Source of the DNA: an uncultured Kiritimatiellota bacterium
Lineage (GTDB): Bacteria > Verrucomicrobiota > Kiritimatiellia > RFP12 > DVOR01
NCBI GenBank assembly: GCA_944389545.1
Contig: CALXMT010000020.1
Coordinates: 1 to 45,037 of the forward strand
Length of the DNA: 45,037 nt
Direction: 5' to 3'
Part shown: positions 5,211-7,746 of the stretch, in pieces
Layout: every line of letters begins with the position of its first letter
Position numbering within the stretch: the first letter of the stretch is position 1
Translations under genes and position numbers: made by a program
The notes under the pieces: model-generated
What the model was told of the DNA's origin: nothing
The model's database searches: none
Seen by the model: only the letters and a program-made list of their open reading frames with translations

Positions 5211-5236
5211 AACGCCTCCCTTTTACCCCCTCTCGT

Positions 5237-5283
5237 GAGACCCTATAGTGGTTGACCGCCGACCCCTATAGGGTCTCGCCAAG
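5237..5283. repeat. Palindromic 22-23 nt repeat pair (CTATAG-centred)
   Basis: Two adjacent units begin with GACC: 5239-5260 (GACCCTATAGTGGTTGACC...) and 5261-5283 (GACCCCTATAGGGTCTCGCC...). Together they form a perfect 12-bp inverted repeat GAGACCCTATAG (5237-5248) / CTATAGGGTCTC (5266-5277). The same units recur in an array at 33381-33471. A separate perfect palindrome, CCTTATATATAAGG, lies at 5320-5333. Confidence 0.8.
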
Positions 5284-5392
5284 CCCCCTCTAGCACCCCT
5301 CCGGGAGATGCCGGAGATGCCTTATATATAAGGTAGGGATGAGGCAGGGTGTGTTCGAGAAAGCTTCCAAGCCTCCAAACTTCTAAAACTCC

Positions 5393-5431
5393 AAAAAAAA
5401 TCCCCCGACCTGGCGGTCGGGGGATTTTATT
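5393..5431. terminator. Bidirectional intrinsic terminator
   Basis: A ten-pair stem TCCCCCGACC / GGTCGGGGGA with loop TGGC (5401-5424) is flanked by a run of A on the left and TTTTATT on the right. It could end the secreted-protein transcript (180 bases upstream) on the plus strand and act on the minus strand as well. Confidence 0.8.
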
Positions 5432-5681: not shown

Positions 5682-5697
5682 TGCTATACTAGGCGCA
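5682..5697 (+). promoter_or_regulatory. Promoter of the structured leader
   Basis: TATACT at 5685-5690 is preceded by TGC, an extended -10 box. The start point should be near 5697, just before the first leader hairpin (CTGCGG, loop GAGAG, CCGCAG at 5700-5716). No convincing -35 is visible. Confidence 0.6.
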
Positions 5698-5886
5698 CAC
5701 TGCGGGAGAGCCGCAGCACCACTTACGCTGAGCGTAACAAGGTTGCTTCGTTCGAAACCTGAGAAATTTCAACAAGTAAGCAACGTGTTAGGCGAGGCGT
5801 GCCGTTTTTGGCACGCTTCCCTTTTGCGTGTTTACTTGTGGGCATTCTCAGGGCCTCGAACGAAGCACGCAAAGGGAGCGTGCTTT
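5697..5886 (+). ncRNA. Long structured 5' leader, candidate cis-regulatory RNA
   Basis: From the inferred start to the ATG at 5887 the transcript has several nested pairings. There are two small hairpins (5700-5716; TTACGC TGA GCGTAA at 5723-5737). A rod follows: GCTTCGTTCGA 5745-5755 with 5856-5866 (11 pairs), CCTGAGAA 5758-5765 with 5845-5852 (8 pairs), ACAAGTAA plus GCA 5772-5782 with 5829-5839 (11 pairs), and GCGTGCC 5797-5803 with 5810-5816, extendable to 9-10 pairs. Several pairs are G-U only when read as plus-strand RNA, which favours a functional RNA over inert inverted DNA. A final hairpin, AAGCACGC 5863-5870 with GCGTGCTT 5878-5885, holds the ribosome-binding site in its loop and competes with the base of the rod. 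It matches no riboswitch class I can name. Confidence 0.65.
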
Positions 5887-7746
5887 ATGTTTGCGAATCT
5901 GAAGTCTTGGTTGAATGCGTGGCGTCCGGCGCTGTCGGTGCTGGAGCGGGGTGCCTTGGTCTTTCCATTGGCGGTTGTGCTGTTGGCCACGGCCTCTTTC
6001 TGGTGGGGCGGGGTGTGCGCACTGTGGCAGGTCTACGGCGGCTTTGCGGTGGCGCTTGGCGTGATGTTTGCGAATCGGCGCCACGCATGGGGCGCTCGCC
6101 TCAAGGGGAGCCTCCTGCTTCTCTGCACAATCCTGGCCGTTTGGGTGCTTGTGGGTTGTTTTGCGATTGAGAATTGGGATGACACCGTTTATCATTTGCC
6201 GGTCATTCGTCTGTTGATGTTAGGGTGGAATCCTCTCTACGAAGCTGTTCCAACAGAAATCCTGGAGCAGGCCGGCGTGGTCTCGATGACAGAGTTCCGC
6301 CCGTGGCATGTGTTGTTCATCTCACATTCGGTGGAAGTCTTCGGCGCATCGTTTGGCCTCTTCTTGAGAAACTTCTTCTGCCCGATGATGACACTTCCCT
6401 TTTTCCTGTTGCCGGCCACGGCAGGAATCATCTGGAGAACACTACGTGACGTTCGGGTTGAGCGAGTGGGAAGAATCGTAGGGACTATAATTGCCCTGTC
6501 TATGACTTTACGCTTTGCGTTTCTTTCTGAGGTGGATTGTGTGGTGGGGCTGGCCGGCTGCGCCGTGATAGCGGCCATGTTCAGGATTCTGGATGGGAAA
6601 CGCGAATGGTGGACGCTGCTGGTGTGCTCGCTGTGGATGATGACGGCGAAGCAAGGCTCTTTGTTGACTTGTTTTGTGCTGTGGGCGGCGTTTTCGTTGC
6701 TGCTGGTGTGGCATAATCGTGTGATGTGGCGACGTCGTCTCCTGCAATTGAGTGCCTGTGGGGCGGTCCTGGTCATTGGCTTCATGTGGATTTGCTCGTG
6801 GCCGTATGTGACATCATGGGTGCGTTATGGACATCCGCTTTATCCTGCGTATACGGTGGATGCGGAACGTTATCCCACGTATGACATCACAGGCGACTTC
6901 GAGGAGCGTAACGAGGATGCCAGGGCGATGAGCCCCATGGGGACCTTTTGCTATGCCTATATCAGCACAACGCTCACTCGCGCTTATTATGCGTGGAAAT
7001 TGGACCGCCCGGACTTTTTGCCCAAATGTGGGGCGTGGGGGCGAAACCGAGGCCCTGAACGGCACGATGTCAATACACCGCTTACGCGTGGCACATTGGT
7101 TCTGGCATTTCTGGTGGTCTTGCTGTTTGGGCATAGAGTGCGACTTGTCGCCCTTCTCTGCATCGTTGCGCTCATAGGATTTCTTCCGAGTTATTATGGT
7201 TATATGCGCTATATAACGTGGATGGCGATTCTGTATGGGTTGGCGATGGCACTAGTGATTGATGGCGTAATGAACCATCTTCGTACTTGGAGTATGGCAC
7301 GGATGGTCGTGGGATGCTTTGCAGTGTTGGGGTGTATCCTATTCGCGCTCAGGCAGGGCTTCGGCTTTGTGGAGCTACGGGACAAGTTTGAGACTGCTCT
7401 TCGCAAGTCCGAGCCGGTGGCGCTTGTTTTCTTTGAGGATGATCATAACACGTGGGCGAACACGCGTTTGCTTTATCTTCAAACGGCCGGGATGTGGGAA
7501 CAGAAGCCGAAAGAGTCAGTCACTGTTGGCGAGACATGTGAACGATTTTATTGTCCGTTCCTTGAGCTGGTCGTTCGTCATGAAGTGGCAGACGGGAAGG
7601 AAGCCAAGAAGGCGACGTCGTTATCCCAACGGTTGCTTTTGGAAATCGCAGAATTCCCACGGACTTATTTGATTAAGGTTCCGCGGCTCGCGTGGTGGCG
7701 GCTTCAATCGCTGTGGCGAAATCCCTACGCGAAGGCGTGCGACTGA
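5887..7746 (+). CDS. Polytopic membrane protein, GT-C glycosyltransferase-like
   Basis: A 619-residue inner-membrane protein with roughly ten to twelve hydrophobic segments. After the third segment comes NWDDTVYHLPVIRLLMLGWNP, a luminal-loop acidic motif followed by YHLP and GWNP. This resembles the first-loop Asp motif of GT-C enzymes that move sugars from polyprenyl carriers. The soluble C-terminal part (about 470-619) has no motif I recognise. The start is ATG 5887, where the protein becomes sensible and AGGGAG lies eight bases upstream; the frame is open upstream to 5743 but that part is the structured leader. Codon use is less GC-rich than in gyrB. Function as a glycosyltransferase is inference. 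Confidence 0.6.
   Translation: MFANLKSWLNAWRPALSVLERGALVFPLAVVLLATASFWWGGVCALWQVYGGFAVALGVMFANRRHAWGARLKGSLLLLCTILAVWVLVGCFAIENWDDTVYHLPVIRLLMLGWNPLYEAVPTEILEQAGVVSMTEFRPWHVLFISHSVEVFGASFGLFLRNFFCPMMTLPFFLLPATAGIIWRTLRDVRVERVGRIVGTIIALSMTLRFAFLSEVDCVVGLAGCAVIAAMFRILDGKREWWTLLVCSLWMMTAKQGSLLTCFVLWAAFSLLLVWHNRVMWRRRLLQLSACGAVLVIGFMWICSWPYVTSWVRYGHPLYPAYTVDAERYPTYDITGDFEERNEDARAMSPMGTFCYAYISTTLTRAYYAWKLDRPDFLPKCGAWGRNRGPERHDVNTPLTRGTLVLAFLVVLLFGHRVRLVALLCIVALIGFLPSYYGYMRYITWMAILYGLAMALVIDGVMNHLRTWSMARMVVGCFAVLGCILFALRQGFGFVELRDKFETALRKSEPVALVFFEDDHNTWANTRLLYLQTAGMWEQKPKESVTVGETCERFYCPFLELVVRHEVADGKEAKKATSLSQRLLLEIAEFPRTYLIKVPRLAWWRLQSLWRNPYAKACD

Follow-up and report, generated by a model that had tools for sequence, protein, structure and literature searches.

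The leader that precedes a membrane-protein gene in the window (the whole 45,037-nucleotide stretch of DNA that was analyzed, from an uncultured Kiritimatiellota bacterium) is one member of a multicopy family that reaches across the phylum, and it is near certain that this family is a structured, selected, cis-positioned leader RNA. Comparison of the copies also makes it very likely that two mutually exclusive folds are under selection. We consider it somewhat probable that the element would be a bistable cis-acting attenuator, in which a long rod would be the ON state and two helices that cross the rod, A1:A2 and S2:S3, would set the OFF state by termination or occlusion. Literature searches found no description of this leader element.

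A blastn search with the leader matched 11 further places in the same genome (identity up to 86%, the window copy's own match excluded), as well as 9 of 16 congeners and four other genomes of the order, one of which (L026) is not a copy. Of the 24 matches that R1, a covariance model built from copies of the leader, gave in the source genome, 13 scored above 100 bits, and the weak ones (48 to 54 bits) had the same architecture on reading. Across wider samples, R1 matched 16 of the 17 genomes in the genus, 119 of the 162 in the order, and, at E ≤ 1e-5, 83 of 388 sampled genomes of the phylum (Kiritimatiellota and relatives), other classes included. Far-class matches keep the order of blocks, 5'-A1 B1 C1 D1 A2 E1 S1 S2 E2 D2 C2 B2 S3-U-tract, with different sequences. 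Homologous leaders in related genomes, which an earlier note on this DNA had made a touchstone of function, are thus present. The note had overlooked the multicopy nature of the element, the helices A1:A2 and S2:S3, and the basal GC that the rod shares with a Shine-Dalgarno hairpin. Two pattern scans of viral contigs and blastn searches of phage and plasmid records found no copy of the leader. In the source genome (G000), the plus strand of the contigs carries 12 of the 13 strong copies, and congeners have copies on both strands; chance or replication-strand bias may explain this.

Placing the copies relative to predicted open reading frames shows that the element sits immediately 5' of, and co-directional with, a gene. 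A co-directional frame of at least 80 aa begins no more than 150 nt downstream of 91 of 93 genus, 33 of 35 order, and 20 of 21 far-class copies (144 of 149 overall), and a divergent frame lies upstream of 40 of 93, 12 of 36, and 4 of 21, respectively. When copies are aligned, similarity starts at the extended -10 element (TTTTGCTATACTAT) and stops at a U-tract touching the start codon of unrelated genes. The -10 conserved upstream and the U-tract at the element's end could also be the promoter and terminator of a stand-alone, trans-acting small RNA that is near genes by chance, and the gene start in far classes, up to about 100 nt further on, would suit such an RNA. However, a same-strand gene immediately downstream in those 144 of 149 copies, together with a genus start codon that abuts or overlaps the U-tract, makes this very unlikely. 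A nonregulatory element, whether dispersed repeat or fossil hairpin, would account for copies 80 to 86% identical preceding unrelated genes within one genome, but it is extremely unlikely given the phylum-wide pairing, the constant orientation and start-codon distance, and the conserved promoter. The earlier note had offered the choice of a new regulatory RNA or a fossil hairpin; the regulatory RNA stands, and the fossil falls to the fixed position and orientation before genes, the conserved -10, and the crossing helices. Among candidates tried and rejected, a MITE or fossil element was ruled out by position, orientation, and covariation, and an integron attC site (GTTAGGC at 5787-5793) by the GTTTGGC or GTTGGC of other copies and by the dispersal of the elements, with no array seen.

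In the window, which holds one copy, all parts of the leader lie on the plus strand. The extended -10 element, TGcTATACT, is read in the sequence at 5682-5690, and a sigma-70 two-hexamer scan found no -35 partner for it, but genus copies conserve it as TTTTGCTATACTAT. Plus-strand positions 5690-5890 fold to -100.6 kcal/mol, versus -64.7 ± 4.3 kcal/mol for dinucleotide shuffles (z = -8.35; none of 200 shuffles was equal), and the minimum free energy structure consists of two small perfect hairpins followed by a stacked rod at 5745-5866. The first hairpin is CTGCGG/CCGCAG (5700-5716), with CGGGnGAGCCG conserved in genus copies, and the second is TTACGC/GCGTAA (5723-5737), an equivalent of which (e.g., TTTGCG...CGCA) is seen by eye in the far classes. 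The ATG at 5887-5889 then opens the gene for a 619-aa multi-pass membrane protein (5887-7746) that has no significant Pfam family. These results bear out the earlier description of the locus as an extended -10, two perfect hairpins, a rod of in-order complementary blocks unlikely by chance, and a membrane-protein start. Because the minus strand is just as stably folded (z = -8.38), the single window sequence alone is not proof of a selected RNA.

Comparison of the copies, in contrast, demonstrates at the level of pairing patterns that leader RNA from the plus strand forms the rod, B-C-D-E-S1:S2. Covariation supports the basal helix B (B1, 5745-5755; B2, 5856-5866), helix C (C1, 5758-5765; C2, 5845-5852), and helix D (D1, 5773-5779; D2, 5832-5838), and the 5' strand of the apical hairpin, S1 (5794-5804), is supported by the fold, by compensatory changes, and by a duplex test. 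RNAalifold on 38 copies gave a rod of 40 pairs with compensatory changes in 29, so the stems of homologues keep their pairing as the earlier note had supposed that a functional RNA would. Double changes from one Watson-Crick pair to another were seen in 33 of the 40 rod pairs in the genus, 32 in the order, and 29 in the far classes. At rod pairs, G-U outnumbered A-C by 397 to 109 in the genus, 150 to 21 in the order, and 84 to 17 in the far classes, and this excess in all three tiers points to selection on the plus-strand RNA, for which the note had cited the G-U pairs of this single copy. A phylogeny-aware null, in which substitutions were re-dealt over a FastTree tree, left 15 significant rod pairs in the genus set and 15 in the order set.

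Two further helices cross the rod. A1 (5742-5748) would pair with A2 (5778-5784) near the 5' end, and S2 (5810-5830), the apical strand of the rod, would pair with S3 (5865-5886), the segment before the start codon, so that S2 is a switch strand with S1 as its partner in the rod and S3 in the OFF state. In the genus set, the next four ranked pairs after those of the rod included one from S2:S3 (97% paired) and one from A1:A2 (100% paired), each with E = 0.05, i.e., at threshold; the phylogeny-aware test on the order-level set gave no further pairs from either helix. We also compared strands from the same copy with strands exchanged between copies less than 70% identical. Cognate pairs were better for A1:A2 (AUC of 0.80, 0.75, and 0.74 for genus, order, and far classes) and for S2:S3 (0.92, 0.94, and 0.83), and control combinations of unrelated strands gave 0.42 to 0.60. 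S1:S2 and S2:S3, two mutually exclusive helices with a common strand, each exceed noncognate pairing in the three tiers, so that both are conserved. In the window copy, the S2:S3 duplex has an energy of -35.7 kcal/mol versus -14.0 kcal/mol for shuffles, none of 2,000 being as good, and that of A1:A2 is -9.0 kcal/mol (P = 0.0015). S3 can also fold on itself. A second hairpin, GCACGC-AAAGGGA-GCGTGC (5865-5883), carries the Shine-Dalgarno sequence in its loop and has the basal GC of the rod in common. Since S3 lies directly 3' of B2 and S2 directly 5' of D2, with no linkers, geometry suggests that S2:S3 would be excluded as long as helices B through D stay fully paired.

The two folds differ in stability and in order of appearance. 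At equilibrium the rod is the more stable fold, with a margin of 17 kcal/mol for the window copy and mean margins of 13.0, 14.1, and 20.2 kcal/mol in the genus, order, and far classes, so an OFF state would need a trigger or kinetic trapping. When growing prefixes of the window copy were folded, A1:A2 formed first and was later displaced by the rod. The wide margin by which the rod is the minimum free energy structure would also suit a monostable leader whose rod serves as a docking site for an RNA-binding regulator (or for RNase III), with S2:S3 and A1:A2 as by-products, and the conserved unpaired nucleotides flanking helix C resemble those at many protein sites. By-products would not, however, stay paired while their sequences change, as these two helices do, and we regard a protein-binding leader of this kind as unlikely.

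For the bistable attenuator, the proposed course would be as follows. Where the rod forms, S2 would be held by S1 and the gene expressed; where the early A1:A2 hairpin persists, the rod would be blocked and S2 would pair with S3. In most copies S2:S3 plus the U-tract would be an intrinsic terminator that turns the gene OFF, and in the genus S2:S3 would also bury the Shine-Dalgarno sequence, with the same effect. A U-tract of at least four T's directly after S3 is found in 85 of 98 genus, 33 of 37 order, and 19 of 21 far-class copies. In genus copies, S3 contains the Shine-Dalgarno sequence (AAAGGGAG at 5871-5878 in the window) and is followed by the U-tract and a start codon that abuts or overlaps it. 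At the order and class levels, the median downstream distance of the start codon is 37 and 34 nt, respectively, and because this distance usually leaves the Shine-Dalgarno sequence outside S3, only termination could work there. The output common to all tiers would therefore most simply be transcription termination by the S2:S3 helix and U-tract. In the window copy, S3 is followed by no more than UUU (5884-5886), so terminator activity may be low there, with control exerted chiefly on translation. Separately, in several order- and class-level copies (L061, L069, L136, L145, L147, L154, and far-class L166, L179, L187, L189, and L191), the segment directly past the U-tract is complementary to S3 by eye (GUGCAUGA with UCAUGCAU and GGAGUCCGC with GCGGAUUUC are examples), and it is possible that this segment and S3 form a third competing hairpin straddling the U-tract.

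Conservation among unpaired nucleotides is highest on either side of helix C, with GAAA..UUUC at C1 (5754-5757 and 5767-5770 in the window) and GGGC..GCCU at C2 (5840-5843 and 5853-5856). These internal-loop nucleotides would be a likely sensor or switching site, and switching would probably proceed through C1 and C2 meeting as kissing loops. GAAA/UUUC (H1) and GGGC/GCCU (H2) can each close a hairpin with C1 or C2 in its loop, their complementarity is far above that of shuffles, and one position of the C2 hairpin is found as G-C, A-U, U-A, and C-G among far-class copies. A loop-loop contact C1:C2 in the OFF state is suggestive, and we treat it as a hypothesis because bases of helices B and D also enter the swap controls. 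A metabolite riboswitch, with the rod loops as the aptamer for a small molecule, would likewise account for conserved nucleotides in the internal loops and for an expression platform whose folds are mutually exclusive. Such a riboswitch seems decidedly unlikely, as known riboswitch models gave no match and the genes concerned (restriction-modification, glycan, and PEP-CTERM) have no obvious common metabolite.

The genes behind the leader fall into recurrent classes, the commonest being restriction-modification, surface-glycan, and PEP-CTERM genes, which normally make up a small share of a genome. Among 83 genus-level downstream proteins, Pfam domains (as raw counts) included PEP-CTERM (10), GtrA (9), acyltransferase (8), Mrr_cat_2 (7), ResIII (7), EcoRI methylase (5), glycosyltransferases of group 1/4 (5), FrhB (4), N6_Mtase/HsdM (3), and GT2 (3), and PADLOC marked type I, II, and IIG methyltransferases. 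EcoRI-type methylases made up 14 of 32 order-level downstream proteins, which also included D12 methylases, MmeI-type enzymes, and SacI and TdeIII endonucleases. As the genes concerned are mainly of the restriction-modification and surface-glycan kinds, the probable effect of the switch would be to set how far the cell is exposed to phages or foreign DNA. At one place in G000 (contig C8, copies L003 and L004, 3.5 kb apart, with L027 in a congener), the L003 and L004 leaders are identical and the first codons nearly so. One gene encodes a GtrA protein of 149 aa; the second one, after about 29 codons, continues as another, large membrane protein. The arrangement looks like a swap of gene bodies downstream of a shared leader.

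With respect to known RNAs, Rfam at gathering scores gave no match anywhere in the whole window, and at the element no known riboswitch, T-box, or other class exceeded its gathering score. In E-value mode over 23 loci, the sole match at the element was a sub-threshold one to Pedo-repair RNA (RF01715); matches to NsiR1, radC, and Afu_513 lay away from it and look like chance. The Pedo-repair match is full length (model positions 1 to 211) at 24.3 bits and E = 0.089, below the gathering score of 150. Over 30 relatives, the five best matches of the Pedo-repair model all fell on the leader element (top score, 27.5 bits), and the model also gives sub-threshold matches on unrelated sequences. Over 388 genomes under stricter filters it gave just three weak matches; two of these, plus one weak match from the 30 relatives, were fetched and are not the leader element, so a lone sub-threshold score is no evidence.

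The likeness to Pedo-repair goes beyond the score. Both RNAs have the same series of rod stems in order and size, with asymmetric internal loops and 2 and 3 unpaired nucleotides between B and C. The Pedo-repair consensus also carries A1:A2 (CUUUGC/GCAAAG; -6.6 kcal/mol, P = 0.0085) and S2:S3 (-27.5 kcal/mol, P = 0.0045), both outside the Rfam structure and score, whereas its sequence is largely different. Pedo-repair is listed for Pedobacter only, with "?" for cis-regulation and "n" for switch (Weinberg et al. 2010, PMC2864571). It is likely, though not established, that Pedo-repair and the leader family form a common class. The statement of the earlier note that the leader has no recognized class thus holds for Rfam families at gathering score and is tempered by Pedo-repair, which points at the element below threshold and shares these extra features.

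Among general systems, terminator/antiterminator attenuators and riboswitch expression platforms resemble the leader in using one strand (here S2) in two exclusive helices and in a later helix that is followed by a U-tract or covers the Shine-Dalgarno sequence. The leader differs in that no leader peptide was seen and no Rfam T-box or riboswitch matched, and in that its competing structure combines a long rod with another hairpin that crosses it and that may signal through a kissing loop. Antitermination of the LoaP, UpxY, and RfaH type acts on polysaccharide operons, and those systems would share with the leader a leader-dependent control of surface-polysaccharide genes; unlike theirs, a large share of the genes downstream of the leader are restriction-modification genes.

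Taken together, these observations tentatively suggest, at somewhat less than an even chance, a new class of RNA switch, spread across the phylum and present in about 10 to 30 copies per genome in some species, that would alternate between the rod and a kissing-loop/terminator fold and coordinate a phage-facing regulon (restriction-modification, surface glycans, and exported PEP-CTERM proteins), Pedo-repair being the sole previously described outlier. If true, this outlier would extend the switch class to Bacteroidota, and an orphan Rfam family would gain a mechanism and a lineage. Phase variation of restriction-modification and surface-glycan genes at the DNA level is known; a common RNA switch before both kinds of genes, in tens of copies per genome of this little-studied phylum, would represent a novel means of controlling a defense regulon. 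What would tip such a switch, whether an infecting phage, some protein, or some metabolite, becomes a testable question.

In the window, the DNA that separates the leader from the upstream gene also holds an inverted repeat at 5226-5280 (GAGACCCTATAG...CTATAGGGTCTC) and a strong terminator-like hairpin at 5395-5430 (ATCCCCCGACCTGGCGGTCGGGGGATTTT). A degenerate TCCAAGCCTCCAAACTTC repeat occurs 5' of several leader copies, at 5365-5400 in the window and upstream of L007, L011, L043, and L044.
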